From: Asterochloris sp. CNOR1
Taxonomy: Eukaryota > Chlorophyta > Trebouxiophyceae > Trebouxiales > Trebouxiaceae
Direction: 5' to 3'
Length of the DNA stretch: 64,000 nt
Assembly (NCBI GenBank): GCA_963969365.1
Contig: OZ017746.1
Location: 1,364,001 to 1,428,000 of the forward strand
Below the pieces are notes generated by a model. The model saw only the letters and a program-made list of their open reading frames with translations. It made no database searches and was not told the DNA's origin. Positions 12,201 through 54,648 of the stretch are shown here, one piece after another. How positions within the stretch are numbered: position 1 is the stretch's first letter; each line of letters starts with the position of its first letter. Position numbers and translations under genes: made by a program.

Positions 12201-15200
12201 CCCGCCCAGTGACAGCGTGTCTCCCCAGGGCTACCTTCCCCGTGACCTGTACTGCCTGGACTCACAGTACGGCACCGAGGCCGAGCTGCGCGACCTGCTG
12301 TCTGTCATGCATGAAAACGGGTTGAAGGCCATCGCTGACATTGTCATCAACCACCGCTGCGCCCACTTCCAGGTGAGAAGCTCTGTTGACACCTCTAGAG
12401 GCTGCAGGGGGCAGTGATGCAGGGGCTGTGATGGCATGCCTGGACAGACACAGGGAGGCCTGGATGTAGGGGCCACCCGAACAGGGGTGCTGCGCCTGCG
12501 CTCACTGCTTGGTGAGAGGCTGTTGGAGGCCACAGAGACCGCCAGAGGGGTTGAACAGGGCGTCATGCATGCCTGCGCAGGCACAGGCAAGGCTGTGCGG
12601 TTTTCGTCTCCTGAGGGCTGCAAAGCACAGATGCCAGTGGCGTGCCCATTGACAGAACTGGCCATGCCCTGCTTCCCACACAGGCTGCCTGGTTCAAGAT
12701 GATTGTTCTTGGGGTCATCCCCTGCCACTGCAAAGCCTTCCATGGATGCTGGACACGAGCCTTAGCAGCACAAAAAGGTGCCATGTTTTGGCATTCCTGA
12801 GGGCTCTAGCATTGATGCACAGCTGATGTCAAGAGCCACAGGGCAAGAGCCACAGGGCTCTTCGGCAAGCGCCACAGGGCTCCACAGCCAGCCGATCGTG
12901 GGTGGCTGGCACTGTGCCTGACAATCTCAGAACGGGCAAATGATGATGTCCTCGTGCCTGAGGATCCGCAAGTGCGGCTGCGCCGTCTGCCAGCACAGAC
13001 TGGGTCATGGCCCCCTACATGGATGGCCCCCTACATAGATTGCCCCCCAGGCAGCTGCTCAAGACCCACCCTGCTGTTGGTCTGCATCACGATGACGCTC
13101 CAACAGGTGCTAGGCTTTCAGCATGACTGTTCAACACTGCTGTTGCTGCTTGCAGTGCAAGCAGCCCATCATAACTCCCCGCTGCCCTGCAGGATGAGAC
13201 TGGCAAATGGAACAAGTTTGGAGGGCGGCTGGCCTGGGACAAGTCAGTCATCTGCAACAACAACCCCCAATTTGGCGGGACGGGGACCCGCAAGCAGACT
13301 GAAGACTATGTGGCTGCCCCCAATGTGGACCACAGCCAGCAGCGGGTCAAGGACGACATCAAGGGCTGGCTCAAGTACCTGCGCACCAACGTGGGCTTTG
13401 ATGGGTGGCGCTTTGACTTTGTCAAGGGCTACGGTGAGCTGGGCTGCATGGTGCCGAGCGTGGGCTCTATTGTGCTGCCAGGTGCCTGCCTGGTGCTGCA
13501 TGCAGGCTGCATTGCGCTGCCTTGTGGGGATGCTCAGACTTTCAAGGGCTGCATGGTGCTCAGACTTCGTCAAGGTGAGCAAAGGCCTGCTGGGTGCAGG
13601 GCATGTCTGTGCTTTGAGTGGTGACTTGCCTAGGGTGTGCAGGGCACTGCAGGGGATTGCAGTGGTTGCTGGCATGTGCAATTTGTGACTCCTGCATGCC
13701 ACAGCGCTGCATGGCGCACTTGCACCTGCCTGCTTGTTGTCGCAGAGTGCTCTGCTCCACACACAGTCAAGCACTCTGACTCATATGCTCTGTGTGAAGG
13801 GGCCTATCTGGCCCACTCTCTCTTAGAAGAGACGACTGCACCGCTGCCAGCGTACGTACGAAGTGCATACTCAAAAGCCAGCTGGCCCCCCACACTTGCC
13901 TTCCTCTATGCTGCAGCTGGCGGTAAGGCTGCTGAAGACCATGCAGGCTCAGCTGGTCACTCAGGCTCATGCGAGCCTTCCAGCTTACCACTCAGGATCT
14001 CAATGAGCTGCAGCTGGCGAGGTCGTCAAGGAGCCTGGGGACACCTCGGCCCTCGTGATGATCACTCAGGCCTTCGCTTGCACCCGCTGCGTCTACCAAA
14101 CACCACGGCAGCCCTTTACTGTGTGCCTCCAAAGGCTGCAGATGGCAAGGCTGTAAAACATCACCCAGCATGTTGCCTCCCCGACTCAACGCTCTGATTG
14201 TGTACGCTGCAGCTGGCGAGGCCGTGAAGGAGTATGTGGACGTGTCAGTCCCCCTGATGGCCTTTGGCGAGTTCTGGGACACCTGTGAGTACACAGACGG
14301 CGTGCTCAACTACAACCAGGACAACCACCGCCAGCGCACTGTCAACTGGTGTGACAAGACGGGGGGAACCTCCGCCGCTTTTGACTTTACCACCAAAGGT
14401 GGGCTGCTGGCACACAGTCGAAGTGCAGACGTGCTTTTGCTTGGCTAGGAAGGCCGAGGGAAGGAGTCTGCCGCTTACAAAGGTAAGCCGCAGCTTTCAA
14501 TGCTCTGTGCCTGACCCTCAATGCCAAGGAGACACCAACAGCCGTTACTTCCACATTTCCAGACCCCACACCTGATGGGCTCTGCCGCTGCACAATTGCA
14601 ACAGGGTTTGTGCCCGGCCGCGCATTCTCTGGTGCCTCCAGCACGCAGGTTGCTGCCTCATCCTTCCTGCCACTGAGCCCAGCTGCTTCAGGTACCTTCC
14701 AGACCTTATGCAGCCAGCGAGCCCGCTGCAAAATTGTGCCTAATTGCTCCAGGCACTTCCCCAGCGCCTTCATCAAGCAAGGCTGCCGCTGCTCTGCCGG
14801 CAGCCAGCAGTGGGTCTTGACCTAGATCCCCATGTGTTGCAGGCATCCTGCAGGAGGCCATGGCTCGGGGAGAGTACTGGCGGCTGGTGGACGGGCAGGG
14901 GCGCCCCTCTGGGCTCCTTGGCATGTGGCCCAGCCGAGCCATTACCTTTATTGCAAACCATGACAGTGAGTGCCCCTTCTGAGCAACGCCAATCGCAGCT
15001 GGCACAATCAACAGCAGCCCTGTTGGTCATGCGTGTGCTCTTTCCCACTCAGCAGCAGCCCTGCTGTTCCTGAGCTTGCTCCTGCTACAGTTGCTGACTG
15101 CCTGTCTGCTCAGCTGCCTGCCCCTGCTGCAGTTGCTGCTTGTCTGCTCTGCACAGCTGCCTGCTCGAACTGGGCCTGTCTGCTCAGACAGCTGCGGCAC

Positions 15201-16110: not shown

Positions 16111-16331
16111 GCCGCTGCCCCTTGTGCCTTCTGCCAGCCATAGTCAGTGAACAAAACATCTCACGTCTGTACCAAGAACGCAATGCAGCTGGCAAGATTG
16201 ACTTAGACGTGCTTCTGAGAACAGCTTGATTGCTGGAAGCGATAAAATTGACTAGCGTGAAATTTGATGGATGCCTGAGCGCATCATAAACAGTCTTGCT
16301 CAGGGCACATTAATTTGGTGTGTCTGGAGAC
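16111..16331. other. Convergent 3' intergenic gap
   Basis: 221 bases between the amylase stop (TGA, 16108-16110) and the stop of the minus-strand transporter (TAG, 16332-16334). It must hold both 3' ends. I saw no clear TGTAA on either strand and no hairpin worth naming. Confidence 0.5.
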
Positions 16332-19300
16332 CTACTCAAATTGCCGTTTTGTGCTTGCCAAGATGAGGTATGTGGTGCCGCCCAGGACATGCAGGCTGGC
16401 AACAATGCGGAAGACTAGAGGCCAGGAGTGTGTGGAGTCGAGAATCACACCAGTGCCATAGATGCTGAGCGCCTCTACAATGCTTGAGAACCCATTTGTG
16501 AGGCCATAGATGATGCCAGCATACTTCGGCGAAATGTCCTGCACATTAACACAGACCGTTGCGATTGCTGCTAGGCCAAGGCAGCAACAGACGCTCCTTG
16601 AGGACCAGTCAGTCAATGGAGTGTTCTTGGGCACCTTGCGAGGCATTGCCCCCCAACTCTGCAAGTCCTCGCGAAAACATGGGTGCCTTGCATGACTCAT
16701 TCCTTCAGGATCATTTAGCAGCAGGCCCCCACTTACTCTCACCAGGTGGTTCGAGGCGGAGCCGGCTGCCTCAAAGCTCTCCACAACAAGGCAGACTGTC
16801 AACACTATGAGCGCCTGGATGGCAGTGCCAGCCTGCATGAAGGGACTCACATGCATCAAGAGGAGTGAACTCTATGGGGCGCATCAGGGGCAGGTGTGCA
16901 GGACAAGGGCAGTCAATGCAACTAAGGCTGCTACAAGCAGGCCAAGGCAAACACTCTCATAGCCGCATCAGGTGCAGGGGTAGAGCAAAAGGGCAGGCAA
17001 AGGTGCCAGAGAAGCCACAAGCAGGCCATCATACACTGGGTGTGCGTGCGAAGCCAGGCGATGTACACCTTGAAGGGCCAGCACCCACGGGCATCCTCAC
17101 CGTGGCAATGACGGCCAGATAGAACAGGCAGGCAGCGGGGCCAAAGGACCCAATGGCCTGCATCAGCTTGCGCACCCAGGTCAGGGGCAGCACCCGCCTA
17201 TTGACCAGCATGTCTGCAAAGGTGCCTGCTGCAATGGTGGCCACTATCGCGGCAGCCCAGGGCGCCATGCTGTATAGGGAGGCAGTTTGGAGCGTTTCGC
17301 CATGCTGCTGGAAGAAAAAGCTGGGGACCCAGATAGAAATGAGAAACTGCCCAACACCTGCAGCAACAGAGGTCGCAGGCTGTCTAAGAGGTGGGGTGCA
17401 GGCACCCCTGGCATGATGCTGCAGATCGTATGGGTGCAATCATGCTGCCAAGAGGGGTCTGCAGGCCCATGCGCCATCACGGGTGCAGGTGTGCGCAAGT
17501 CTGGGGCTTTTGACAGGGGCAGAAAGTGCAGGTCAGGCTCCAGCAGGCTGCGTACCTTGAGTGCTCTGGCAGATGAGGATGGCCCACACTGCTCGACTGC
17601 AAGCAAATTGCTCCCAAGGCACATCTCCCAGGCTCTTCACAGGCTCTCGTCTGCAGCACCAGAACCACGGCAAAGGTTCGCAGCGGCGTTGACGGCTGCA
17701 GCAGTGCACGCAGGAGCGATGCCTACTCCGCATGTGCAGCTTGAAGTGACCCTCCCCACCTCTGGGCATGCAGTCATTTGCTCTGAGTGCTGATGGCTGG
17801 CAAGGCAGGAGTGCTTGCCGCTGTGTTTCTTGATGATGGAAGAAGCCTCCCCAAGCCACCTCGTCCAGAGGCATCCAGCATGCATGCACAGGCAGGAGTG
17901 TGTCGGCTGACCTGAGGGTGAAGCTCCCTGGGGCTGGTGGATGGAGGACTCTGAAGGCAAGAGCAGCCCCACCCCAGCAGCGCGCAGGGTCACCAGTGAC
18001 GCAATGCCACAGCACTGAAAAGCGAGAGGGAGCATGCATGCATTTCACGCGGGGGGTCTGGGCCTCGCCTGGGAGTGAAGCCCTTGGTGGCGGGCGGGTC
18101 CTCCGTGACCAGGGGCACCCAGATGACACACCACAGGAGGCCCACAAACCCATACACGAAGAAGAGTGCAGGCCAGCCATAGCCCTTGATGATGAAGGGG
18201 GCTGTGACGTACGCGCAGACGGTGCCTGCAGTGGCCCCTGCAGGGCAGGGGCGGGCACCTCAGGCTAGCCCCACGCCGTCATCCGCAAGGACTGGGGCAC
18301 CCATCTCAAGCTCCCACAACTGCTGCTTCAGGGTGCCGCAGCATGCTCCACAGCATGCTGCAGGGCCTGGCCGGCCTCCAGTGCACAGCCCATCTGCTGC
18401 AGCAGTGCCCCTCAGCGCAGCAACCTGCATTGTGGCACTGCAACAGGCTGAGTGGCGTCGAGGGCTCAGTCAGCTGGGCAGTCACCACACTGCCCCGGCA
18501 TTACCTGCATAGACCAGGGAGTTGGCCCGTGAGCGCTGCCGCCGTGGCACCCAGCTGCTGGTGAGGTGCTGGATGGCTGGAAATGTGACCCCCTCCCCCG
18601 CGCCCATGAGCATGCGGCAGGCCAGCAGGGTGTAGATGTCGCCGTTGGCAGCCGCCAGGGGGGTTGCGATGGTGAAGGCAGACCACACCAGCACACCCAG
18701 GCCCAGCACCAGCTTGGCAGTGTAGCGGGTGGCCAGGTAGCCACCAGCAATGTTGGAGATGGTGTAGCCCACAAAGAAGACACTGCAGGGCGGCAGTTGC
18801 ACTGCTCAGCTCCCTGTGAAGCTGAGGGTCCCGCAGCCCATGAAGGTGATGCTGCAGAGTGCGGCCGGAGGTGGTGGCACAATGCATGGCTTTAGCAGGG
18901 CCATGACTGGCAAGAGTGGGCCCTGATAAGGTTGGTGATCGTGCAGGATAGCTTGAAGACACTGCAGGGCAGCATTTGCATGGGCAGCTTCCTGTGCATC
19001 TGAGTCAGGTTCAGCGTACAAAAGAGACACTGCAAAGACGAGCAAGGTAAGCTGAGCACAGTGCCAGGCATTGCAGTGCAGCTGGTGGTCAGCGATTGTT
19101 GGGAATGGTGTTATCTGTGATGAAGGCGTGATAGAGCACGGCAAGGGAAAGGGCTCAGCCCAGCATACTGCCTTGTTACACATCATGCCGTGCAAGAAAA
19201 CCTCCAGCAAAGAGGCACATATTCGCCTGGGGGGCAGCAGGGCAGCCGCTGGAGAATGGGGACTGGCCCACGCAGCAGCTCGCCTGGGGGGGCACCAGGG

Positions 19301-19798
19301 GCCTCCAGCTGGGGGCAGCAGCTCTCACTGGGCTGCAGTTGTTTCCCTGCCATGCGCAGTGTGCTGCCAGGCAAGTGATCGACCTACCACCTCTCGTCAG
19401 TAGGTGCGCCTGTAGACTGAGCACCACACAGAGAGAGGCAAGGGAGGCATCAGCAGACCTTGCAGAGCGGTAGGCAGCCCACATGCTGTCAGAGGCACCC
19501 AGCCTCACCTGTTGACGGCGCCCTTCGTGTGATCATTCCACCCGTACTCTAGGCCCATGGGGATCATGGCCACGCTGATGGCCGCGCGGTCGATGTAGCA
19601 GATGAAGGCAACCATGCAGCACAGAGCGACCACCACCCACATGCGCCAACCGCCAGGGGGTGCATTCTCGTCTTCGTCTGCATACTGCCTGCACGAGGCA
19701 GAGAGGAAGTGTGCACCAGGGAGGGTGGACCTTGTCCGCAGGGCTGGCTGCTTGCCCAGCAACGGGGTGCGGTGGTGGTGCACAGTGGTCCTCTGCAT
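16332..19798 (-). CDS. Major facilitator anion transporter, SLC17/ANTR (PHT4) type, probably plastid
   Basis: Membrane carrier of the family that includes plant ANTR/PHT4 phosphate, ascorbate or anion transporters. Minus-strand exons: up to 19505 (WRMWVVVALCCMVAFICYIDR, first membrane segment), 18783-18510 (FFVGYTISNIAGGYLATRY, then CRMLMGAGEGVTFPAIQHL, the family signature), about 18239-18060 (FIIKGYGWPALFFVYGFVGL), about 17360-17070 (VPSFFFQQHG, IVATIAAGTFADML), about 16833-16747 and 16541-16332 (ISPKYAGIIYGLTNGFSSI to the stop). The junction between the first two restores a Ser (AVNS/VFFVGY). The ATG at 19798 begins MQRTTVHHHRTPLLGK, an Arg/Ser/His-rich stretch with few acids that could be a transit peptide; an earlier exon is possible. 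The substrate cannot be told from sequence. Confidence 0.82.
16880..17035. repeat. Two-copy tandem repeat in a transporter intron
   Basis: Units of about 80 bases beginning 'gcatcaggggcagg' and 'gcatcaggtgcagggg' and ending 'ctacaagcaggcca' and 'ccacaagcaggcca'. Both lie within an intron of the minus-strand transporter, and the copies are clearly diverged. Confidence 0.6.
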
Positions 19799-20837
19799 GC
19801 TGCCTGCAGTCAGGGGGCCAGCCAAGGTGCATGCAGGGCGACCACGCACGCTCCCTGCTGGCTGCAAGCTGGCTGGCTCTCAGAGATGCAGCCCAGGCAG
19901 GGCTGGTGTCAACCTACAAGGAAAATGCTGCACATTGCAAGCTGGAGGCCCCAGAGCACCCAGCTTGCTGATCCCACAGGGGTGCACCCTGTCATTGAAG
20001 TCAGCAAAGGAGGTAATGCAGTGGAGTAGAGCGGGCCTTGCCCCACAGGTTTGACTGCTGGTACAGCAGAGCAACACTGTGGTTCTCATTGTTGCCTGCA
20101 TGCCCCCAGAACAGGCAAGTGCACGTGGGCAGGGTGCGTTCGTGAGGCATGCTGCATGGGGATGGCTCTGTCACATCTGGCTTCAATGCAAATGATGCCC
20201 GCTAACACCCCCTATGCTGGGTCTGCTGCACTCCAGACGTCCACAGGCTGCATGCTCTCCTGTGCTCTTGCAGCATGGCTGCCGTCTTATGTGTGTCTGG
20301 TGTGCGCAGAGTGCACAAAAGTTGCTGCGCTTCTCCCCCTGCGACAAGCCCGCATGCCTTTACCTGAAATAGTCGTCCCCGCCATTCTCTCTTCCAGCCC
20401 CAAAGAATCGCAGAAGACCAACTCGCCTGGCAGCGCCCAGCGGCGTGACTGCATTTTGATCCCTGCAGGTGATGGGGACTCAGCTTGCACAAGGCGACAA
20501 CGTGCATCCAGCACTCCGATGATGAGACCAGGTTGTGTCATGCACAACCCTAGATCCCTCCTTTGCAGCGTGAACAATGGCTGGGTCTACCTGAACATTG
20601 TGAATGCATTGGGCCATAACACCGACCCACTCGGGCAGGCAAAATGAGTCAGCACATGGATTTGATCCATGAATGTCTGATGGGTGGCACTAGCAGCGCT
20701 GCCTCTCTCTAAAGGCAGCCTGCATGAGCCTGCCCAGCCGTTGACAAGGCTGAGCCACATGCATGCTGGCAGGGCCCCACCTGCTGGCATCGGTGTGCGC
20801 AGCCCTGTCCTGGGCGCCTGCCTCAGCCTCACACGAA

Positions 20838-22966: not shown

Positions 22967-25900
22967 ATGCTGCACCTGCAGGCCTCAGCTGCAACTACGC
23001 TGCAGCAGCTGGCAAACCTGGCAGGCACAGCCCAGGCAAGCAGCCTGCAGAGTCTGGCCGGGCAGCAGCCAGGCATGGTTGGGCAGCAGCTGCAGCGTGC
23101 ACTGGCTGCCGCGCCCACCTCCATGGCGCAGGCCCTGCAACAGCAGGCAGTCCAGCAGCACCAGGTGGGCACTGTGTAGCCATGATCCGGGGTCTAGCCC
23201 TCTGTGTGGAACTGCTGTGCTCAGAAGCAGCTTTGCTCACGTGCAACACGCTGGGCACCTGTTGCAGCAAGAATCCGCTGGGCTGCACAGTTGCTGTCGC
23301 ATCAGCTGCCAGAGCTGTCTTTCCACGCCGTCACTGCAAGCTGCCAGGCAGAGACCTCAAGGCAGCCCGCCTTGCAGAGGCCTGCCCAACCCGCGATGGC
23401 CAATCACCTGCACCGGCAGCTGCACCAGCAGCAGCAGCCGCGGGTAGGGCGGCCCCCGGGCTCAGGAGCTGCCATGGCTGCTAGCCAGGTGATGGCTCGT
23501 GCCCAGCTGCACCGGGGCCCAGGGCGCCCGCCCTCACGGCCGTACGCAGCGCAGACGACGACGGCGGGTTCGCAGGCGGCCATTCATGCGGCGGTGGTGC
23601 AGCAGCAGCACATCAACAGGCAGATGACCCGGGGGCCCAACCAGCGGGTGGATAAGGTGATACATTGCAGCCATCATGTTGGCCCAACGGCTCGGTGCAG
23701 GGCTGGCAACGCTCTGCCCGTTAGCATGAGGCGGTGCTGGGGCTGCTTGCACTGTGCGTAGGCAGCAGCACCCACTGCGTGCTGTCAGAAGGCCGGGCTG
23801 TATGCTGAGGACACCAGCCTTGCCATCCGCACCCTGAGGCGGTGCCCCTTCTTGCCGCAGCAGCCTGCCTCTTGAGCCCCCATGGGGCTGATGGCCTTTG
23901 CCTGGGCCCTGCAGCCGCAGGGCACCCCGCTTGTATTGTAGTCTTGCTGCACTGGTCTGTCAACCCTTTGCAGGTCTCGGGCATCCCTCAGCTGCCTGAA
24001 ATGCGCTACTTCAGCGCGCTGCACACCTCCTGCCTGGTGCCTTCAGCCGCAGCACAAACCCCCTAGCTGCTAAAGGCGCTCCCTCAAGGTACGGGCCTTG
24101 CCCATGCTCATGTCACTGCCTGCTGGTGCAGGGCATCCCACAGCTGCAGGATTCTGTGCCCACTGCTACAGCAATTGCTTGATGAGACCCTGCTTGGTAA
24201 CTGCACCCGCAGGGGATGTCCCAGCTGCGAGAAACTCGTACTTCAGTGCGCTGCAGCTTGGGCTCCTCCAGCCGCTAGAAGGTTGCTGCCACCCTATCCT
24301 TTCACCCTATCCTCCCACGACAGTCTCTCAATGTCGTCTACCCCTCCTCCCGTCGCCACCTCCTTCCTGCAGCCGCAGGCAGACCTGTTGCTGCAGGAGT
24401 CATGGCTTTTCTGCGTGCTGCAGCTTCGCGTCCTGCAAATGCTGTGCGTCCACCCCAGCTCACCACAACAGCCTACACATCGCATCTCTGCCTGCAGCCG
24501 CAGGCAACCCCCTTGCTGCCAGAGTCGCGCAGCTTCAGCGTGCTGCAGAAGCGGGAGCGGGAGGTTGATGAGCTGGTGGCCCGCAAGCGCCGTGCCATCC
24601 GTGAGGCCGGCCATGATGCGCGCCTGCAGAACAAGAAGCTGCGCGTCAGCGTGCACTCCCAGGCCATGAACCAGCCCAAGGCCAGCGGGCAGCGGGGCTC
24701 AGGCAAGTCCCTGCCTTGGGGATGAACAACAGGCTGCACTTCAGCGTGCTATCCTGGGCCATGAATCAGCCCTGGGGCAGCCAGCTTTTCTGCCTCGGCA
24801 GCATCTGCAGAGCGTAATGTGTCTGTGCTTCAGCATGCACTCCCAGGCCATGCACCAGCCCAATGCCAATGGGCAGCGGGGCACAAGTGAGCCAGAGGGG
24901 TGCTGGGCTCTGCGGCAGTGGTTTGCTGGCACCTTCTGTATTGCCCATCCCTGCGCTGCCTCCAGTTATGTCAGCAACTCAGCGCACCTTGTTCGCACCT
25001 CTGGATCTGGGCTGCTTGCTGCTTGGTGGCTGATGACTGTCTTGGCGGCACTGCTGTGTCTGGTAGTCCTGGTGTGGGCTGCAGCTGTTGGCATCGTGAG
25101 TCGCAATAACACCGCCAGAGCAGCGGCTCTGCCGGCCTGTTTTGGTGACTTGCCTCCAGGATTTACTGCTTGCAAGATGTCTGAGCATTCCTTGTGCAAG
25201 GTGCTGGCTGCCTCACACTGTGCCTCCTGCCGTCAGTGCAGGGCATGTTGATCCATGAATGTAGGTGCGTGCATTGCAGATGCCCCCTCGTGGGTCCTGA
25301 CTCTTCATGGTGGTCTGCTAGACCCTGCTCAGGCCTCCCAGCTGCCCCCTCTGGGCTTCCAGCCACAGCCAGCAGATGCGTTCCAGTGGTTTGTGCGCAA
25401 GCTGACTGTGCAGCTGGATCCAGCGCTGTACCCTGGGCCCGACGGGGTGATCCAATGGGAGAAGGCGCAGCATGTGGGTGAGTGGCGAGACAAATTCGAG
25501 ATCAGGTGAGCAGCAGGCAGCCAGTGGCATGGGGCAGCATGCCTTGACAGAATGGGACTTGCCACGGCAGAGGCTGCTGTGAGGGTGGCTCCTCACTGCT
25601 TTCCGTCAGCTTGGGGACGTGCAGAGAGGCAGCCTCTTGCTTTTGTGCCTGACCTGCATCCGGGATCGCGGCTTGTCACCAGGAGCAGTCAGTGGGCAGC
25701 AGTCAAGCATGCCGGCTGATGGGCACCACCATCATCAGGTGCAAGGTGCTACTGCCTGACTGTCAGCAGCCAGGGGCCTGCTGACAGGATGCAGGGCAAA
25801 TGATGTGCATCTGTAGCATCAGGGTCCTGCCTGCCAGCCCATGATGGGTCCTACCTGTGTATCCTTGTCGAGAGAATGGGCCTCTTGCCCTAACTTGGTT

Positions 25901-42128: not shown

Positions 42129-45100
42129 ATGCAGTCTACACACGGCAGAACTGCCAAGGCGACCTTCGGGGTGCAGCCAAAAGAGCAAGCCCTTGAAAGA
42201 CTGGTGAGCTGGCCAGGAGCACACAGCCAAACCAGGAGCCCAAGGGTCGTGTGCTTCACCTGAACGAAATGACATGTGATGCAGGTCCAGCAGAATGACT
42301 TTCTACAGCGAGAGAACCAGCTCTTTCAGACATTTCTGCAGCGGGTGCGCGCTTGGCTGCACCAATAGTTTCTCTACACCTCGACAGCGATGCTGAGACT
42401 GCTGTCTGCCTTTCAGGCAAGTACCACCCTGAATCTGAGCCTGGAAGAGGAGGAAGCAAAGGTGACAACATCCTCAGGGCAGTCCCATCTCCCTGCCCTT
42501 GACCCATATGCACTGCGCAGGTCAATGCCTGTCACATGGGTGCTGCAGAAAGCACTTGCTGCAGACTAGGATTGCTGATCTGCAACAGCTTGCATCTGGT
42601 GTATTGCAGAGAGCAGCTGCTGCTGCTGCCGCTGGCAAGAAAAGGAGAACCAAGCCAGAGGTGGTGATCAAGCAGGAGTTCAAGGCCCTGACCTGGGAGG
42701 AGAAGAATGACATCACAGCGTCTGAGACGGAGCTCATGCAGGCGGCCATGCTCAAGGCGAGGCTGGTCTGCTAGACCCTGGTAAAGCAGGCAGCCATGCT
42801 GAGTGTGAGTTCTGCTGTTTGCTGCGGGAATGGAGACCACTCTAGGTGCTGCTTCTGGCAAGGGCCACTACAGCCCCGACACTAGGTGATCAAGGTGAGC
42901 TGACTTTACTCCTGCCTCTCCAAGCCCAGAGGACATGAGTTGCAGGATGCCACCCTTTGTGCTGCCTGTTCTGCAGGACGAGGCCCACGGAGGATGTGGT
43001 GCTTGAGGCGTGCACAACATATGCACGACTGAACATCGAATCCAGCAATGCTGGAAGGCTGTGGCTGCAGGCCCAGGAGGCAGGCTTGCTCCTCACAGAG
43101 TTCGAGATGTGCTGGGTGTGAGCTTCTGTCCACTGCATGCACTCAGCAACATGAGGCCCACCAAGCAGGGAGAGGCGGCCGCAGGAGACTTATGTTGCGC
43201 TGCAGCACCTGATCGACCAGCCATGCTTGTGTGGGCTGCAGGCTCGAGAAGCTGGGGAGAAGCGTCTGCAGGAGATCCATGTGATGCTGGAGGAGGTGGA
43301 CATGCGCCTGGCCGAGAGCCGCAAGGACATGCACGACTTCAGGCGCGACATCATCAGTGCGTGCCTCCTGCCTGGCTGTGTCCACCCCGTGTCTCCTCGT
43401 GGTGCTATGCGAGGACATGCATGACATCACGCGCAGCATTGTTGCTGCATGTCCCTCCCTGCCTGGCAGCACCTGTCCATTGTGCAGCATGCCAACACGG
43501 ACATGTGCCACACTCCCCTTGCTCACTGTGTATGTGCTGCACAGAAGCCATACTGCGCGAGTGCACCTTGAGTGTGGGGCTTGACAAATTCCTTATGCAA
43601 AGCTTTGGCATGGCTGCATGCACCTCACATACCAAGCTGGACATGCTGCATGACAGCAGCACACAGGAGGCAGTGGGGCACCCTGCAGCCTGGCGCCCCC
43701 GACACAAAGCAGTAGTCTGCAGTGGGCTCGATGGACCTGTGCGCATGCAACCACTCAATTATGCATCCGTGACCTGCAGAAGGGGCACATGCCCTGCACT
43801 GTATCAGGAGTGGTATACTGGCCTGAAGCATGCCCCCATGGTCTGCAGTGGGCGCAGAGAACCCGCGCACGGGCAAGACATCGGCAGAGAAGATGCTCAA
43901 GTACATGGAGGAGCGCATGAAGGTCAAAGATGCGCTGGCAGAGAAGCTGCAGCTGAAGAATGCTGCCCTCAAGGTATGCTGGGGCAGCAGTCCCCATGTC
44001 CTGCTGCGAACCCTGCGTGCTGGGGCCAGAGCAGTGCATGCAGAGCAAAGCAGGCTCTGACACACAGGCGGCAGCAGAAGCTTGTTGCTCTCAAGGTGCA
44101 CCAGGGCAGCAGCAGCCCAGGATCTGTGGCAGACTATGCTGATGCAAGGGCCAGGCCAGCTTTGTTCTGGCCTGGCATGCGGACAGTGAGGTACTTGGGC
44201 AGCAGTGAGAGGCCAACTTTGCACGTGAGGTCCCAGCGGCTTGCTGTTGCTACCGCCTGCAGGGGCGCAGCCCCTTTTGCAGATCTGACTTGTTTAGCTG
44301 TTCGGCCCTGGCGGAGATGGACATCCACTGTGATCCAGAATAAGGACGGCCTCCTTGTGCAGCCTCCGGATGCAGCCTGATGGACCCAGGCATGCCAGCA
44401 AGTGCACCCATCACCCTGAAGCCGTGTGAAGATGTCAGAGCCCCACACAATCTCCACTGATCTGCTGCCCTGATAAACTGAGCTGCAGGTAATGGGTACC
44501 TGCAGATGCAGGCAAGGCTGCAAATCGTTGCTGGATGGCTGAGGCAAGGTAGTCAACCATGCGCTTGTGCAGCCTGAAGGTGCAGGCTGGCCTGTGCATG
44601 ACTCTGGTGGCTGCAGGTCCAGACAAGCAAGCCGCACTGCAGCATGCTGGTGCAGCCTGAAGGTGCAGATAAGCCTGCAGGGCTTGGGAAGGCTAGGGCA
44701 CCTTCAGCTGCAATTTGACAGATGTTTCATTCAAGCTAAGTAGGCCTGCAGGTGACCCGCTGGCTGGCTGCAGGTCCAGACGACCAAAATGGAGCACCAG
44801 CTGCGCTTAAAAGAGGACATGGGCGAGGTGCTGCACGTGGTTGACTTTGACCAGCTCAAGATTGAGAACCAGCAGTACCTGGAGCGCATCGAGGAGCGCA
44901 ACAGTGAGCTGCTGCGGCTCAAGACAATGACAGGCAAGGCCGTGCAGGTGAGCATCCAGACAGGCATCTTTGCCTGAGCTGTGTTTTGCTGGCGGGCTGC
45001 GCTTCAGACAAGCAGAGAGGTGGGCTTGCAAGGGCCACTGGAGAGCATGTGACATCCATCTGGCATCACGTGCTTGCTCCTCGGGGCCCAACACAGCAGG

Positions 45101-46236
45101 CATGCCATCCAGCAGTGTCTCTGTGGACCAGGTCATCCAGCCTCCTGCAGCCATCACCCAACAGATGATGCTGAGCTGACCGCGCCCAGCATGCCTCAGA
45201 GAAAGGGGAGTGCCCCGGAACCGGGATCAAGCTGTCAATCACAGGACTCAAACCTGCACTCGACCGGGGGCAGGTGTTGCGCAGCTCAAAGCCACATGGG
45301 CTGCCTCGGTGCACCCAGGCAACACAGCAGCCAATGCACTGGTGTTGCTGCGCTGCAGGTGCTGGGCAATGCACAGGCAGCACTGGTGGTGCTAGTGCAG
45401 CAGGGAAGGCTGCAGGGCAAGCTGACTTCGCCCTCTCCTACCCAGCAGCAGGTCTCACGTAGTCCATTTGCAGATGTCGAGCCAGAGCCACCCCACTGCA
45501 GCTGCACTTGTCTGGCCTGCCTGCAGGTGCTGGGCGATTACAAGGCCACATTGGCGGCGTTGGTGCAGCAGGGCAAGCTGCTGCGCAAGGAGGCTGCCGA
45601 CCGCCGCGCCCAGTTGGCAAGCTTTGACAGTGACCACGACAAGGCCACTGCGGAGAAGACCCATGCAGAGCGGGCGCTCAGGAGGTTGAAAGACGATCAA
45701 CAGGATACGTGAGCATGGGACACCATGGTTCTGCATGTGTGTGGTGTGTCAGCAGGCTGCTCGGCACCTGGCATGCTGGACCATGTAGAGCAGGCGCCCA
45801 GGCAGTTGGACTGGTGGTCAGCAGCATGCTCGGATGGCAGCATTCTGTGCTGTCATCTGTTGTGTGGGTGTAGCGCATCATCAGGCTCTTTGCTGTGCTG
45901 ATACTCCAGGTTGGTGTCCAGCTATCAGAAGCATGATGTCCCAACAGCACGTGGCATTGAGAACAGCTGGGCGGCCTTGGTTCCTAGGGTACGCTGCATC
46001 CCTATACCCTCAGCCCGACATTTGCTGGTATCTGCAGGGACCGGCCGCAGATCCTGGACTATGTCAAGCTGAAAGTCGAGGTGGCTGAGCTCGAAAAGAA
46101 GCTGGAAGACCAGTCTCGCAGAAATGAAATTGCAGAAATGGACTTGCAGAGAACCAAGAAAATGTTCGTGCAGCTCAACACACTTCCACTACCAATAGCC
46201 TCTTCAGCAGGGCATGCAGACGTGCACAGCCGTTGA
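42129..46236 (+). CDS. CFAP263: Cilia- and flagella-associated protein CFAP263 / CCDC113
   Basis: Coiled-coil axonemal protein. The ATG at 42129 (MQSTHGRTAKATFGVQPKEQ) joins in phase 0 to 42285-42344 (DFLQRENQLFQTFLQR). Following exons are 42418-42462, about 42609-42770 (GKKRRTKPEVVIKQEFKALT), about 43242-43353 (RLQEIHVMLEEVDMRLAESR), about 43847-43974 (TSAEKMLKYMEERMKVKDAL to KLQLKNAALK), 44774-44947 (DMGEVLHVVDFDQLKIENQQ, YLERIEERNSELLRLK, the strongest family signature), 45527-45708 (YKATLAALVQQGKLLRKEAA) and 46038-46236 (QILDYVKLKVEVAELEKKLE). A possible extra exon near 42970-43110 (TEDVVLEACTTYARLN) is unproven. The order of segments follows human CCDC113 well. The C-terminus after RTKKMF is unlike the family and may hide another splice. 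Introns carry several exon-edge copies. Confidence 0.85.
43974..44120 (+). repeat. Copy of a CFAP263 exon end with donor
   Basis: The real exon end 'gaatgctgccctcaaggtat', followed by 'gctggggcagcag', is echoed about 120 bases downstream (near 44080) by 'gcttgttgctctcaaggtgc', followed by 'accagggcagcag'. The GT donor is kept. Confidence 0.7.
45320..45592 (+). repeat. Duplicated CFAP263 exon start, open in frame
   Basis: The exon at 45527 begins 'gtgctgggcgattacaaggc'. A copy with its own cag acceptor begins at 45359, 'gtgctgggcaatgcacaggc', and stays similar for about 63 bases. It reads VLGNAQAALVVLVQQGRLQG against VLGDYKATLAALVQQGKLLR. A third, weaker copy lies just upstream (about 45320-45355). 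Confidence 0.88.
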
Positions 46237-46783: not shown

Positions 46784-49187
46784 CTATCTAAACAGGCGTT
46801 CAAGGAGCCATGTATCCTTTAACTCTGCGGCCTGCTTACTTTTCAGGGGGAGGAAGACTGTTCTGCGCAGGGGCCGCAATGATTCTAGCTGCAGGAAGGT
46901 GCCGTCCTCGTTGCCGTGCTGCCATCCACTGCTCTTCCACACCTGCACAGACAACATGGGCAGAACTTGGCAATCACGCAGAACCCAACAGCGGAGTGCT
47001 GCACTGGGTGGCTTGCAGGCACCACTGCAGGTATCTCAAGCCATTGAACGGTGGGATATGACTTTGCAGACACAAAGTTTGAAAAGAGCAATGCATAAAC
47101 ACTGCAGTGCACTTACCTGAGGAAAGGCAACTGAGCCTTTGGGGATGACTGCACAGGCAGCATGGGCATCGCTATCCTCCGCATACTGCCTCAGGAACTG
47201 AGTGCACTGCTGCAGGGTTTCTGGAGACTCAAAAGCTTTTGTGACCTGGACCCTCCCCATCTGCTCCTTACCATCAGGGCCAGCCCGACCTGCACATGCC
47301 AGCACATGACCTCAGCTTGTTGCATGAAGCGCCAAGCCCACTAAAATGTCATGCCAGCGGATTGGCCCTTCATGCTCAGTCCTGTTGCCTGGGGCATCAT
47401 GTCAAGGTGCCAACGTTGAACAGCAGCGCTGAGAGAGCATGGCCTCACTGACCTCACCTGCCGGTGTCCTGGCTCCACGGATGCTTTTGTGTATTAGGGC
47501 ACCCACTGGGAGGAAGCAGACTGCAGGCTGCAAACGCTGAGCATTGTTGCTTATGCCCACCCACCTGGCAAGAAGTAGACTGCCGGCTGAATGTCCTGGG
47601 GCGCCTTTTGCATCTCTGCCTCTGTCAGCTCTTTGACGTCCTTCATAAAGTCCTCGATGCGCTCGTCGCTGATGGGAATGATGGTGCTGTTTGCCTGCAG
47701 CGGCGATGCTGGTGCTGAAAAATGCTGCTGACCTTGCATGCAGACAGCAGGGCTTGCACTTGCTGGGGTGCTTTGCAAGCTGTCAGGGAATGAGGGTGCT
47801 CTCTGCCTGCCTTCGCAGGCCTGAGGGAGCTGCTAGCCTTGCATGTGAGTGGCAGCGCTTGCAGTCGCTAGGGATCCGGTGCAGGCTGCTTGAGTAGTAT
47901 CATGGTCTGCCCATATTTGCGGGCTCAGGGTGCTGCTTGATCAGAAGTGCAGGCCATCAAGTAAACGTGCTTGCACTTGCGGGGATGCAGTCCAATGCCA
48001 GAAGGCTTATGGCAGCTACACTGATGGCACGTTGCATGCATTTGGAGCTCTCAAGATCAGCTCACATTGCACTCTATGCGAAGTCATGCCAATTGCTTTC
48101 ACTGCATGCTGCTCATGCAGGTGCAGGGCGGTGTGGCAGTCTCCAGCATTGCAGAGAGAGCCATCTGTATACTCACTGCCTGCTGCTTTGCAGCCTCATA
48201 CTCCTCATCATTGCTGATGACCCCCGTCACAGGTGCCTGCCCTATCCTGCCAGCTCCATCCGCTGCCCCAGCATCTGACGCCCTGGCATGCCCGTTTGGT
48301 GTTGCCTGGACCGCCCCTTTCCTGCCTGTTGGCTTCTTTGCAACATTGGCTTTGCCACAGGCATCCTCTTTGCTGGCAAAATTGAAGCTGCTGCCCTCTT
48401 CCCGCGAGGCCTTGCGAGCCTGGGCACGTTGCCGCTGCAGCTGCTTGCTCAGTGCAGAGGCCTTGCTGGAGGCTGCTGGCCCTGCATCTGGCAGGCGTGC
48501 CGCCTGCTGGTACACACCTATTGCCTGCAAACACAGAATGTTCATATGGAAGCACCATTCATCTCCACTTGGTTAGGGCAGCTGCTTTGTTGGCCCTGCC
48601 AGATGCGGCGTTCGGTACTCACTCATTGCATGCTTGCGTAGCAGATGCATCTGAGGCGGCAAGACGTCTGCTGGCAGACTTGGTGTGCGACAGCTACTGG
48701 TGCATTACTGGTTGGTGCCACAGTCCTACCAAGCAGCTGCAGAACCTGCCGTGTGTCCACCGTTCTCTGCAGCTGCGACTTGCTTGCTGAGCCCCTCCCA
48801 CTATGAGCTGAAGCAGCGCACCTCATCAAATTTCTCAGCTGCCTCGAGGGCTGCCCCCTTCCGAAAATAGCCCTTCTCCCACTCAGGTCTCAACTTCAGG
48901 CAGTGTTCTGCATCTGCAAGGGCCTTGGCCACCTTTTGGAGCTTGAGAAGCGCAGCACTGCGGTTGCTGCAGCGCATATGGCACAAAGCCAATGTCAGAT
49001 GCATCACGACCTCCAAAGTAACAGCTCTGCCGTCGGGTCCCAGCCTGAATTAGATGGCCAGGGTGTCTCACCTGTAAAGCACTGCGTTTTCCGGATCCTG
49101 CTTGATGGCCTTCGTGTAGGTTGCTGCCGCCTTCAGGTACTGCTCTGATGCAAACTCTGCGTTACCCTGATCTTTGAGGCTGCTCAT
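46784..49187 (-). CDS. TPR-domain co-chaperone-like protein
   Basis: The first exon is 49187-49070 from ATG (MSSLKDQGNAEFASEQYLKA, YTKAIKQDPENAVLYR). The second, about 48966-48821 (NRSAALLKLQKVAKALADAE, LRPEWEKGYFRKGAALEA), completes three TPR helices pairs of the Hsp70/Hsp90-binding type (as in STI1/HOP and relatives). The third, about 48530-48130, continues AIGVYQQAARLP and then becomes a charged, Ala/Lys-rich linker. Later exons are about 47697-47561 (SDERIEDFMKDVKELTEAEM), about 47275-47116 (ETLQQCTQFLRQYAEDSDAH) and about 46949-46784 (HGNEDGTFLQLESLRPLRRT), ending at TAG 46784-46786. It probably docks chaperone C-termini in the cytosol. The function of the conserved C-terminal part is unknown to me. 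Its ATG is only 71 bases from that of HBS1. Confidence 0.72.
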
Positions 49188-49258
49188 GAAGGCTCACAGC
49201 TCATCTATTCGCCATGCTGTTGACCTTCAAGTTTGACCCGATCCCCAGCATAGCAGCC
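49188..49258. promoter_or_regulatory. Very short bidirectional promoter
   Basis: 71 bases between the start codons of the TPR gene (49187, minus) and HBS1 (49259, plus). If HBS1 instead starts at the in-frame ATG at 49214, only 26 bases remain. Both 5' leaders must then overlap or be very short. No core promoter motif is obvious. Confidence 0.5.
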
Positions 49259-52200
49259 ATGCCAGGAGGCAAGTCCGGCAGGGCAGCATACGACGACGAA
49301 GACTGGGAGGATGAAGAGGATTATTATGATGATTATGCAGAGGATGCTTATGATGATACAGTGCAGACTGCCATCAAGCCCAAGCAGGCACGTTGCTTTG
49401 AAGCTTCTCTCCAGCACTCTGCATCAGCATGCTCAAACCTGCCCACATGTTCAGGGGACAGGTATTGCTGGCGCAGGCAGCAGGGGAGCAGGCTCCAAGG
49501 CCGGCAGTACACCTGCCAGACAGGCACAGGCACCTGGTCCTGGCAAGGGCAAGGGGCCCCAGGCCAAGCCTGCCCCAGCTGCAGGTGCTTCGGCGTTGGC
49601 TCAGTCGCTGTGCAGTCCCCCACCCCGGCTGCCAACGGGCAGGCAGCAACAGGGGGGTGAGGGCGTGGCTGCCTGCCCGCCTGCGTGCTGCCGGCATCAG
49701 CCAGAGTCTGTGCACAGCATGCCAGCGCTTCGTTGCTGGCGCATCCCTGCTGGCCTTGTGTCTTCTGTGTCATCCTTCAAGCGTGACGGGCAGCAGCCTG
49801 CACTCCAAGAGCTGTCCCAATTGCAGGCACACAGCAGTGCCACAGCAGCTGGTGGCCCCAGGCACATGTGTGACTGCAGGCCGGAAAGCTGCCACCCCCA
49901 GCCAGTGCCAGCAAACCTTTGACCTGGCGCCCACCAACAGGTCAGCAGCAGACATACAACCCTTCCAATTTGACACTCCCTCGCCTGATGACATTGTGCG
50001 CGCAGCCCAGGGTCGCCCCACAGGGCAGCCCAGAACGCCAGCAGCAGCACCTGGCAAGGCGGATGCAGCCAGCAGCAGGCCGCCGACTGCCACGCCTTCA
50101 GCCCCAGCAGTGAATGATGCGCAGGCTGCAGCTAGAGGTGCGGTTGCGCAGCCGCAGCACTGAGGCATCATGCCTGCTTATTTCTCCACATCAGGCGGCT
50201 TAGGACCACTGCCTGGGCCGTCGGCCCCAAAGCTGCCTGCATGGAGGTCCATGAATGTGGCTCTGACTGCCTTAAGTGCCTCTTACTGCCATTGCGGCAG
50301 GCAAGCGCCTGCAAGGCCACCCCCAGCAGCAGTTGAAGGCTGCAGCTGAAGGTGGGGCTGTGCTGCTGCAGCACAGACGTGTGCCTGCCTGCACCCTGCA
50401 CCAGGCGCCTTGCAAGCACTGCCTGGCTGTCGGGCTTGTGGCCGCCGCCCTGAAGCTGCCTGCATCAGGCGGTCCTCCTCGCTGGCTGGCCGGCCCACAG
50501 CCTGGCAACACTGCACAGCACTTTACGCTGCAGGCGTCAGTCAGCTCAGCGTGTCAGATGGGTCAGCCACCCCAGACAGCAAAAGCACCTCCCCTCGGGA
50601 CCAGCCCCAGCGCACAGTTGGCAGAAAGCGCTTGCTGGAGGAGTACAACCTAGAACCTGAGCTGCAGCGCAGCGTGGCAGCTGCCGAGGCCCACGCAGGG
50701 GCCAAGCCCAAGCTGCACCTGGTCGTCCTGGGGCATGTGGACGCGGGCAAGTCCACGCTGATGGGGCGCCTGCTGCACGACCTCGGGTGAGCGGCTGCAC
50801 GCCTGACTCTGGGGGCATGGGGCTGCCATTGCGCGCTTGCAAAGGGGCCAAGCAGCACCTGCTGTCTGGCGCATGACACCACGGCAGCGTCGCTGCTCTC
50901 CTCACAGCAGCCCAGACCAGATCACGACAGGACCAAGAGTGGCCATGCTTGCCGGCCTGTCTTGAGTCCCACATTTAGCGGAACACACACATCTGCATCA
51001 GACCTGAAGGCTGTCCTGCCTTCTGGTTGGCTGCCAGGCTGAGGGGGAGCCTGGCTCTGTCTGCAGGTACGTGGACAAGAAGACAGTGCACAAGCATGAG
51101 AAAGAGTCAGCCCAGGCTGGCAAGGCTTCCTTCTCCTGGGCTTGGCTGCTGGATGAGCGCCCGGAGGAGCGAGCACGAGGTGAGCGCCCAGGTTGTGAGC
51201 CTAGCTGGCTGCCGGATGTGCGATGCTGTGGTCACCCCAGGCTCTTTCCAGCGCCAGGCACAGTCAAGACATGCCGCATGCTGCAGGCAACCTCCAGCAT
51301 CACCAGCACAATGGAGCGGTCTGCTGCGGACACTGGGCCCGCTGACAGTGAGCACCGAGACCCGTGCAACCCGCTCAGCAGTGCAATATCCTGCAGGGTT
51401 TGGCAGGTGCATGCACCACAGACTGGATGCCTTCTGAATGATCTGCAGATCTGGAGCGCTGTGGTAGCAGGTCCGTAGAGTAGGCCTTGTGAGCAAGCCT
51501 TGCAAACTCTAGAGCGTCTGGGATGCAGGCGTCACAGTGGACGTCGCAACAACCCGCTTTGAGACCAGTCACTGCAATGTCACCCTGCTGGACGCCCCGG
51601 GGCATTTGGACTTTGTGCCCAACATGATCATGGGGGCTGCGCAGGCGGATGCAGCGCTGCTGCTTGTCGACGGCTCCCCAGGTCAGCACAGCCTGCAAGG
51701 ACCGCTTCATTGCCCAGGTTGAGGCACACCTTGGGGCACAGCCCTGAGGGGTTCACTGCAACACTTCTGAGCTAGGTTGTGCTATGTCTTGTGGTCAGTC
51801 CTGCACAGCCTGGCAGCCTCCCTGACGTGCGGCCGCTTCACAGGAGTGCAGCACCTGATGGGTTCAGGGCAGCACCTTGAAGCTGGTTTGAGAGGGTGCT
51901 GTTACCCTGTGTCCTGCTTCAGTCTGAGGTCCACACTCTTCCAATGAAAGCAGCAGCTGTGTGCAGCGTCCCACCAGCCGGGCTGCCAGTACGCTCTGTC
52001 ATCAGCAGGCAGGTGGGATGCCAGCTGCAGAAATTGCAGAAGGGCGCAGCTGCTGCATTCTCCAGGTGGCGGCCCAGCTGGGAATGCCAGTCCAGGTGCC
52101 CCCCCGCAGCGGCTGGTCACAGGGCACGCTCTGCTGACCTCAAGCCTGCAACAAGCTCTGCTGCAGATGGCTTCAAGGCCAGCTTTGAGACCGGCGGCGG

Positions 52201-54648
52201 CAGCCTGGAGAGCGCCTGCACCAGCCAGACGCAAGAGGCCTAGCTGGCCTGCAGCATGCTGCACTGCAGTGCTGCAAGATGCTTCAAGGCCAGCTTCAGA
52301 GCGGCAGCGCAAGCCAGCCCCGCCCAAGGAGCAGTGAGGCTGCTGCACTCCACCTGCTGCAGGTGGCTTTGAGGCTGGCTTTGAGGTTGGAGGTGGTGGC
52401 CTAGGGGGGCCTCGTGGCGGCCAGACGCGAGAACATGCCCAGCTAGCCTACAGCCTGGGCATTCGCCAGCTGGCCGTCATCGTCAGCAAGCTGGACACCT
52501 GTGACTTCTCGCAGCAGCGCTTCCAGCACATCCAGGAGACTCTGCTGCCCTTCCTGACCTCACGGCAGTGCGGCTTCAAGGCTGGGGACCTGCAGTGGCT
52601 GGCAGCTGTGGGGCCCCTGGGGGAGAACCTGATGGGTGCCCCCAAGGACCCCAGGTTTGCGGCGTGGTTCAAGGTCAGCACAGGCTGCCAGAGGGTCTTG
52701 CTGTGGTTGCTGTAACATCTCGGGCGGCCTCTCAAGGATTCTGGAGTGCAGCCTGGTTTAGTGTCAGCGCTGGCTGCCGGACTGCCCTGTATGTTGAGCT
52801 GCAAAAGCTGGCAGCACTCACCCAGGCCGTCAAAATCTGGGACTGGACATCTGCGGCCTGGTGCAAGGTCAGCACAGGCTGCACTCCAGAAGCGCGCAGC
52901 ATATCACTGGTGCCCCCAGCAGGCCGCTGGTTCACGAGAGATGCACTTGCTGCTGCTGCCGTCTTCCCACTGCCAAGGGCGCATGGGGCGGGTGCCGAGG
53001 CTCTGGATGGCAGGGCGTCAGCCACCCTCCATGGCAGACAACGAGAGACAGTGTCATGTGCACGGCAGGGGCTTTAGGTGTGGCAGCCCTTGAGGTACCT
53101 ACTTCCCAGTCATTGTGTTGAAGTCATTGTGTTGCAGATTACAGGGTAGCTGCAGCATGTAGCTGTCAAAGGGCCAACCATGGTGGAGAGGCCTGCACCA
53201 GGGATTATCAAAGTCACAGACCTCTGTAGCGGTGTTTCACAGGGCCCCAGCATGTTTGCCTTCCATGGAGGCCCTCCTGGTCAGTAAGGCAGCAGGCAGG
53301 TGAAGACGTCTGCGCTGCAGGGCCCCTCGGTGATGTCAGCTATCGAGGCCTTCAAGCCACTCAACAGGACAGCTGCACTGAGGCGGCCGCTGCGACTGCC
53401 CATCATCGACGTGTTCAAGGGGCAGCGCGGGGGCCTGTCCATTGGCGGCAAGGTTGAGGGGGGCGCACTGAAGGCAAGCACCTGTGCTCACTGGTCCTCA
53501 GCTGCAGTGCTCACCTTGACTGCTGCCAGCTTATGGGCAGGCGCCATCTTGAGGTGAAGTAGGGGTCTCTGGAGGCTGCAGGCCTGAAGTCAGTGCTGGC
53601 TGCACTCACCTTGAGAATCCTAGATACTGTCTACTATTCCCTTTTCAGGCACATGATGAGGTGCACTGGCAGCCTGTGAAGGCTCAGGGAGTCTCTCGTG
53701 TTTGTGCTGGCCACGCTTTTCACGGGCCGAGTTGTGACTGCCTATCACTGACATGTATCGACATGCTGAGGTGCATTGGGTACCTGAACTTGGGTGCATT
53801 CTGTGCTGGTATGTCATGGACAGCACCTTCTGCATGCAGGCTGGGACTCCCGTCATGGTGCTGCCCTCTGGCGAGACTGGGACTGTGCGGTCTGTGGAAG
53901 TGGATGGCTCACCTGCTGAGCTGGCCACTGCTGGCGACAGCGCAGATCTGACGCTGTCAGGTGGGCTGCCTGCTGCCACAGAGAGAACATGCTGCGCAAC
54001 AAGCCTCTCCTTGCTGTCCCTTTCTGCTGTCAGTCTCGCAGGTCTCAACACAGAGCAGCTGCTCTGTGTGCAGGTGTTGACGCTGCAGTGCTGAACACAG
54101 GCGCAGTCATCTGTCACCCGGAGTGGCCTGTCCCCCTTGTGACCAGGTTTCAAGCCTGCATCCGACTGCTTGAGCTGTCCATCCCCATCACGAAAGGGCA
54201 GCAGGTACCCACAGAGAGAGACAAGAATTTACTTACCAGGCTTCCTCCAACAGCCCCGGCTCCAGTCAGGTCGCCTCTGTGTGCCAGTGCCCAGCCTTGC
54301 TTGGTCACTGCTCCTGTGACTGCGGGACAGGCAGACATGCAGCATGCCCAGTAGATGCTGCCATCAACAGCGCGTGTCCCTGCTGTGCAGGTCACCATCC
54401 ATGTCCATGCAGCCAGGGAGACAGGGAGAATTACGCAGCTGGTATCCCTGCTGAATGCAAAGACTGGGGAAGTCACCAAGCCCAAACCAAGGGCTTTGCT
54501 TAAGGAGCAGACTGCCGTCATAGAAGTCACAGCATCCAGGTCACTGTGCTTGGAAACATATGCAGACTATAGGGCTCTAGGCCGCATTGCACTGCGGGAC
54601 TTGGGCAGAACTATAGCGGTTGGCACTGTCACTGAGCTGCTTCAGTGA
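49259..54648 (+). CDS. HBS1: HBS1-like translational GTPase (ribosome rescue, eRF3/eEF1A family)
   Basis: Works with Pelota/Dom34 to release stalled ribosomes in the cytosol. ATG 49259 gives the acidic N-terminus ([20 protein letters not shown]) typical of HBS1; an in-frame ATG at 49214 is possible. Then come a low-complexity linker, [13 protein letters not shown] (about 49965), and the GTPase domain: G1 GHVDAGKST in exon to 50787; exon about 51067-51180; [20 protein letters not shown] (G3) in about 51525-51681; exon 52363-52673 with the G4 position reading SKLD instead of NKMD. The beta-barrel domains follow in about 53323-53475 ([20 protein letters not shown]), about 53838-53960 ([20 protein letters not shown]), about 54073-54204 and 54391-54648. 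The end [20 protein letters not shown], then [20 protein letters not shown], is the EF1A-family C-terminus. Several introns repeat exon edges. Confidence 0.92.
52155..52460 (+). repeat. Copies of an HBS1 exon start in the preceding intron
   Basis: The real exon at 52363 begins 'gtggctttgaggctggcttt'. A copy with its own ctgcag acceptor at 52161-52166 begins 'atggcttcaaggccagcttt' and stays alignable for about 90 bases, including 'ccagacgc' and 'tagcctacagc'-like words. A shorter third copy starts near 52276 ('gatgcttcaaggccagcttc'). Confidence 0.85.
52650..52890 (+). repeat. Copies of an HBS1 exon end and donor in the following intron
   Basis: The real exon end and donor read 'gcggcgtggttcaaggtcag' (from 52660), then 'cacaggctgc'. 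Copies: near 52748 ('tgcagcctggtttagtgtca', 'gcgctggctgcc') and at 52853 ('gcggcctggtgcaaggtcag', 'cacaggctgc'). The last matches the real edge at 28 of 30 positions by eye, donor included. Confidence 0.93.
53235..53365 (+). repeat. Copy of an HBS1 exon start upstream of exon about 53323
   Basis: The exon begins after ctgcag with 'ggcccctcggtgatgtcagc', then 'tatcgaggccttcaag'. About 80 bases upstream, 'ggccccagcatgtttgcctt', then 'ccatggaggccctcctgg', follows a cacag acceptor-like site. Similarity is moderate. Confidence 0.55.

Follow-up and report, generated by a model that had tools for sequence, protein, structure and literature searches.

The window analysed here is a 64,000-nt stretch of Asterochloris sp. 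CNOR1 (contig OZ017746.1, positions 1,364,001 to 1,428,000), and it carries predicted genes for an amylase, an MFS transporter, SWP73, YIF1, a PP2-A10-like protein, CFAP263 and HBS1. Pfam matched six of seven spliced gene predictions. The transporter matched MFS_1 (E 1.7e-46), SWP73 the SWIB family, CFAP263 the CCDC113 family, and the YIF1 gene was identified at E 4.3e-32; the spliced prediction of the PP2-A10-like gene gave no Pfam match, and its name is that of the original prediction made from the sequence. The key genes were also checked by homology, the amylase against barley amylase and HBS1 against HBS1L, with further checks for CFAP263, YIF1 and SWP73. Ten raw open reading frames of the window gave no Pfam match, probably because the exons are short, and a tblastn search of one window reading frame against phages gave none either.

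The sampled DNA amounted to 314 kb on four contigs of one genome (56.4 Mb, 21 contigs) and comprised the window (contig 1), a 100-kb stretch of both contig 2 and contig 7, and 50 kb of contig 4. Exon edges were taken from a purpose-written, self-training ab initio gene model that used no transcripts and required at least 18 nt for an exon after an acceptor; it replaced an earlier version that gave micro-exons. For the first 264 kb the model predicted 603 introns, with a median length of 218 nt, and for contig 4 a further 84. The splice consensus of the predicted introns was very strong (donor CAG/GTGAGC, acceptor CTGCAG/G, the slash marking the junction). GC donors occurred in 84 of the 603 introns; some of these seem genuine, and others are doubtful and probably partly wrong. 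Before counting, we removed 19 of the 603 introns, located in two regions of contig 7 that contain a heptad-repeat gene and a gene duplication.

The original prediction held that introns of six window genes, namely amylase, SWP73, YIF1, PP2-A10-like, CFAP263 and HBS1, contain diverged extra copies of the adjoining exon edge together with its splice site. Such copies, here called echoes, were located in each of the six. In the amylase gene (plus strand), positions 14007-14060 repeat positions 14206-14259 with 78% identity (p 2e-7; the score was reached by none of 1000 foreign stretches), reproducing the acceptor and the first 47 bases of the exon that begins at 14213, a junction spanned by the alignment with barley amylase. 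A second, weaker echo of the same acceptor lies at 13905-13937 (p 0.006; 2 of 1000 foreign stretches), and the gene finder placed beside it an exon, 13917-13970, that amounts to an 18-residue insertion relative to the barley enzyme. The predicted intron 13434-13916 contains a donor-side echo at 13537-13601 (p 0.002 and 0.0004 in two runs). The MFS transporter gene, which was absent from the original list, has a minus-strand acceptor echo at 18908-18980 in intron 18783-19508 (p 1e-6 to 2e-6). In SWP73 (plus strand), intron 24037-24497 holds two acceptor echoes (24351-24423 and 24201-24256), a donor echo (24212-24275) and a weaker acceptor match (24038-24094, p 0.001); another acceptor echo lies at 28360-28417 in intron 27881-28479 (p 0.0002). 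The same gene has three copies of ~60 nt at 24629-24701, 24724-24785 and 24823-24885, spaced ~95-99 bp apart. The gene finder called the outer two exon, and any of the three may be the true one.

The YIF1 and PP2-A10-like genes contain serial arrays. The YIF1 array (36845-37338, plus strand) was detected both by TRF (period 101, 5.0 copies) and in alignments as ~5 tandem copies of 101 bp; it begins 15 nt inside the exon and extends across the donor site and on into intron 36860-37618. The first two copies share 95% identity, and the copy identities taken by distance are 0.94, 0.86, 0.72 and 0.83, the third over a longer stretch. In the PP2-A10-like gene (minus strand), intron 40259-40862 holds donor-side copies at 40738-40809, 40624-40690 and 40502-40570 with identities of 0.76, 0.75 and 0.72, and this array (40490 region) is a full-length tandem. 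The expected weakening of the copies with distance is thus seen in the PP2-A10-like array and only loosely in YIF1. As for ordinary minisatellites, recognised as TRF arrays, YIF1 qualifies, and most window echoes have no TRF row at their spacing.

The remaining echoes of the window were found mainly in CFAP263 and HBS1, both on the plus strand. CFAP263 has an acceptor-side echo at 43154-43211 in intron 43116-43241 (p 0.0003), a donor echo at 43409-43467 in intron 43357-43848 (p 6e-5) and an acceptor echo at 44602-44674 in intron 44357-44773 (p 1e-4), the last with an intact CTGCAG/G site of 14.1 bits. In addition, positions 45323-45445 copy the acceptor and exon 45494-45613 (p 1e-8, 71% identity); the gene finder made an extra exon, 45359-45451, of this copy, and residues 266-277 of chain 8glv_F4 were matched twice. 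In HBS1, the exon beginning at 52363 has an acceptor echo at 52158-52236 (72% identity, p 4e-7) and a second one at 52257-52296 (p 0.0005; 0 of 1000 foreign stretches). The segment 52167-52223 inside the first was called an exon, and HBS1L has no match there. Intron 52674-53320, whose donor junction sits within the HBS1L homology, carries donor echoes at 52840-52882 (p 1e-5) and 52714-52781 (p 3e-4). A minus-strand donor echo lies at 47485-47532 (p 0.0002) in intron 47149-47564 of a gene that, by the look of its translation, is presumably TPR-like.

Across the four contigs, 47 of the 604 introns of at least 80 nt contained a match to their own exon edge at p<1e-3 (14/127 in the window, 14/202 in contig 2, 7/195 in contig 7 and 12/80 in contig 4). 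The count without contig 4 was 32/524 in one run and 35/524 in another, the random null differing between the two. We further used a fixed 150-nt target with introns of at least 190 nt and junction exons of at least 60 nt. At p<1e-3 the own intron matched at 40 of 704 junctions, compared with only 1 of 704 for the reverse complement and 0 of 695 for sibling introns of the same gene. The excess over both controls means that the echoes are due neither to chance nor to shared base composition, the artefact that the original prediction had named as its possible undoing. Comparison of the window with itself (E 1e-3) gave 17 matches, all direct and each joining sequences less than 400 bp apart. Local pairs of at least 35 bits, collected in 3-kb windows, were direct or inverted in the ratio of 28:0 in the window, 29:2 in contig 2 and 56:1 in contig 7, or 113 direct versus 3 inverted over the three sequences, a total that includes the two contig 7 regions later excluded; block-shuffled DNA gave 0 direct pairs and 1 inverted pair. 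Many of the local direct pairs straddle predicted splice junctions. The exon-edge echoes are thereby confirmed as real, and the underlying duplication, present on all four sampled contigs, is local and recurrent as had been proposed.

Echo-bearing introns were longer than the others, with median lengths of 480 and 234 nt, respectively. Junction matches to the fixed 150-nt target rose with intron length from 0/212 at 190-250 nt to 7/253 at 250-350 nt, 16/134 at 350-500 nt and 17/105 at 500 nt or more. Because the target was fixed, length gives no advantage in these counts. The length that all tests require was reached by 196 introns, and 42 of these showed some edge or internal duplication at p<1e-3. 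What is observed is an association, compatible with intron lengthening by duplication; the proposal that echoes lengthen introns holds as such an association, and its causal part we infer. If the pattern is genome-wide, serial local duplications would offer a simple way for the introns of a compact genome to become long.

The obtained copies are short, local and diverged. Of 54 echo-junction distances, 33 were 59-128 bp and 10 exceeded 200 bp; the predicted spacing of 70-130 bases therefore agrees with the peak of the distribution and misses a tail that reaches 402 bp. In 44 of 54 cases the alignment crossed the junction with at least 8 nt on either side, and the template was therefore DNA or unspliced RNA rather than mRNA. 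Among 35 echoes, mismatches were spread evenly over the codon positions (142/522, 128/526 and 146/531, or 27%, 24% and 27%), and the distances modulo 3 were distributed 10/10/15, i.e. out of frame; together these indicate that the copies drift. Of the 28 donor echoes, 21 retained the splice dinucleotide (GT in 15, GC in the others), as did 17 of 23 acceptor echoes. When the echo sites were scored against predicted real sites, 19/28 donors and 13/23 acceptors lay above the 5th percentile and 10/28 and 7/23 above the 25th, in support of the claim that echoes seed possible decoy splice sites. Echoes would also be natural competing splice sites of known ancestry, on which splice-site choice could be tested.

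By position, 17 local pairs were intron-intron, 40 touched a junction or joined exon and intron, and 4 were exon-exon. A head-to-tail arrangement was demonstrable in 10 of 56 local pairs, in addition to the YIF1 array. The full-length examples include an 82-nt match at a spacing of 81 at window position 9605 and an 86-nt match at a spacing of 86 at position 26112 of contig 2. The former is a non-edge case, an 81-bp tandem duplication (9605-9767, plus strand, 84% identity, repeat length equal to spacing) that lies wholly within a predicted intron. In the other 46 of the 56 pairs the match was shorter than the spacing, and their flanks on the same diagonal were at the random level (0.528 versus 0.525, z 0.30), a comparison in which the bias of alignment ends toward mismatch hides a weak signal. 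Even among the pairs with at least 84% identity, 17 of 20 matches were shorter than 0.8 of the spacing (two being rows of the YIF1 array), as in a 31-nt match of 94% identity at a spacing of 194. Decay explains part of the short matches, because the score cut demands high identity and alignment ends are biased toward mismatch. The echo set itself showed a weak continuation past the probe, reaching ~80 nt on the exon side and ~100 nt on the intron side (0.63-0.65 versus 0.59-0.62 in the null); the gap cost was lenient, giving a null identity of ~0.60, and the excess alone counts. The notion that all copies are ~100-bp head-to-tail duplications was thus not borne out for 46 of the 56 pairs, and beside the tandem form there is probably a contribution from spaced copying or from tandem copies that were later rearranged.

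We consider it probable that the echoes were left by ordinary local duplication of short DNA segments, partly tandem and partly probably spaced, which is tolerated when it spans one splice site. Such duplication would strike genes more or less anywhere, either head-to-tail or with a gap between the copies, and its likeliest source, by analogy, would be breaks or paired nicks that are repaired imperfectly. Most duplications upsetting an exon would be purged. Those lying inside an intron or across exactly one splice junction would be tolerated, the latter because the old mRNA could still be made with the outer donor or the inner acceptor. The intron copy would then decay free of coding constraint and the exon copy would be kept by selection, so that edge copies should remain visible for a longer time than intron-intron copies. 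With each further event the intron would grow and acquire decoy splice sites. By the same analogy, a repair origin would cover both the tandem and the spaced forms.

A more specific reading is that splice junctions are themselves hot spots of local duplication, for example through nicks linked to transcription or R-loops. It draws on the higher match rates at exon edges. With 50-nt probes, edges matched at 24/404 and 20/407, deeper exon at 5/304 and 4/313, and intron interiors at 2-7%; profiles with these probes showed similarity all along the introns and a drop inside exons. Within one intron set, donor-edge probes matched in 17 and 25 of 152 cases versus 11-12/152 for probes inside, and acceptor-edge probes in 13 and 15 of 150 versus 7-11/150. 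With 80-nt probes in 196 introns, edges exceeded interiors by 34/392 to 18/392 at p<1e-3 (1.9-fold) and by 59 to 35 at p<1e-2, and with a single pooled cut-off the ratio of edge to interior was 44:30. Self-similarity is therefore higher at exon edges than elsewhere (34 versus 18 of 392 each), so that the second outcome named in the original prediction as refuting it did not occur outright, and the interiors are clearly duplicated too.

We compared the observed split with a simple simulation of uniform duplication in head-to-tail units of 105-200 bp, in which exons changed at 0.1-0.25 of the intron rate. The simulated edge-to-interior ratio was 1.04-1.23, below the observed ratio in each of the seven parameter sets. 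With matches treated as independent, the probability of the observed split under the simulation was 0.026-0.089 at p<1e-3 and 0.016-0.072 at p<1e-2; the all-tandem assumption of the simulation is wrong insofar as 46 of the 56 pairs lack a demonstrable tandem form. An earlier simulation without contig 4 was similar (24:11 in 156 introns, simulated ratio 1.13). The excess over uniform duplication is thus marginal and exon edges are not clearly special. Moreover, selective survival of duplications and the slower decay of exon copies can account for much of the edge preference. The copies also cross the junction rather than start there, as in YIF1, where the unit begins 15 nt inside the exon. Given duplicated interiors, 44 of 54 copies crossing the junction and a marginal 1.9-fold excess, the junction-directed process that the original prediction suggested is not established. 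We regard junction hot spots as unlikely. Unlikely, too, would be a fuller version, in which edge lesions linked to transcription or splicing are repaired by copying of nearby DNA, and introns grow from their ends and gain decoys, some of which become exons.

It is very unlikely that the echoes are instead kept for a function, as mutually exclusive exons or regulated decoys. Decoys do often score like predicted real sites (the 5th percentile was exceeded by 19 of 28 donors and 13 of 23 acceptors), and three echoes were called exons by the gene finder. However, mismatches show no codon-position bias, distances are out of frame, and the three called exons are unmatched in solved homologues. Mutually exclusive exon duplication in particular was rejected: it would be expected to leave a constrained in-frame copy, and the mismatch was 27%, 24% and 27% with out-of-frame distances. 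The three calls, in amylase, HBS1 and CFAP263, are a warning for ab initio annotation, in which echoes can be mistaken for exons.

Intron gain, in which a local duplication turns exon into new introns, is highly improbable as the source of the echoes. Local duplication is common here, and the windows around the 5' and 3' junctions of one intron were locally similar in 34 of 516 introns versus 5.2 expected. On the diagonal that the model requires, however, own introns were no more similar than foreign ones (0.321 versus 0.320) and 0 of 516 exceeded 0.45, a comparison in which gains that are too old would escape detection. The observed resemblance of intron ends lies off that diagonal and possibly reflects arrays spanning short introns and echoes that the gene finder took for exons. 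The model, in the partial account of it used here, likewise invokes local duplication that creates or copies splice signals; it makes new introns out of exon, whereas the copies described here lie within introns beside the exon, with no diagonal excess. That TGCA/GCA-rich introns and a strong splice consensus (CAG/GTGAGC, CTGCAG/G) merely imitate copies is hardly credible, given that foreign introns, sibling introns, reverse complements and shuffles all fail to give the signal. An introner family, with one sequence recurring in introns of unrelated genes, was also rejected for the window and the sampled introns (window self-matches all less than 400 bp apart; 0/695 for sibling introns).

Short local duplication, our preferred reading, has been described in several forms. 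Earlier accounts are said to be those of Thomas in 2004 for doublets, Vaughn and Bennetzen in 2014 and Schiml in 2016 for short tandem duplication, and Gao and Lynch in 2009 and Hellsten in 2011 for the intron-gain model. The echoes behave like doublet-type duplications, a minority of them tandem: they are direct, near-source copies without an inverted excess (113 versus 3). In passages of PMC2671141, vertebrate doublets, or repair-mediated duplications, are likewise short direct copies near their source and not necessarily adjacent to it; they occasionally carry exon-intron junctions and are put down to imperfect break repair with copying. According to the same portions of that paper, copies within 50 bp were excluded from the vertebrate set as tandem, and partial exon/intron donors make up 4 of 824 in its Table 2; in our sample 47 of 604 introns have an edge copy, and since the methods differ the two rates are not directly comparable.

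In rice, as far as the excerpts of PMC7971508 go, insertions arise most often by tandem duplication, which is ascribed to patch repair of adjacent nicks; its share is 70% of insertion events at the start, falls past 125 bp and has dropped to 5% by 200 bp. These duplications are alike in being direct, local and of a similar length scale, and the rice-type spacing, mostly below ~125-200 bp, recurs here in the 33 of 54 echo distances at 59-128 bp. The rice kind, in those excerpts, consists of adjacent copies, whereas adjacency was found here in 10 of 56 pairs and YIF1, and the flanks of 46 of 56 were at the random level. In mammalian cells, fill-in of 3' overhangs by CST/Pol alpha-primase followed by end joining gives small tandem duplications without pre-existing repeats (PMC8355091, PMC5730883, each in part). 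The passages concerned deal with mouse and human cells, induced breaks and overhangs of 43-54 bp (PMC8355091, PMC5730883), and the system is not an algal one. Among the matches listed in a literature search, judged by titles and abstract openings, no paper described exon-edge echoes. The original statement that no named system covers them is only partly right, since short local duplication itself is well described.

The two regions of contig 7 removed before counting showed duplication of their own. At G000:C7 ~1055546-1057730 (L017), a predicted YSPTSPA-heptad gene, presumably encoding the tail of the largest RNA polymerase II subunit, has five 42-nt exons of two heptads each with introns between them, and one intron (joined coordinates 57131-57336) contains decayed exon-like copies. 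The heptad tail seems to have grown via duplication of exon-plus-intron units. The second region, at G000:C7 ~1076811-1080396 (L019-L020), contains a local duplication with a spacing of ~1.8-2.1 kb and pieces of 74-100% identity (100% over 246 nt, 87% over 535 nt), and is perhaps a partly homogenised gene duplication.
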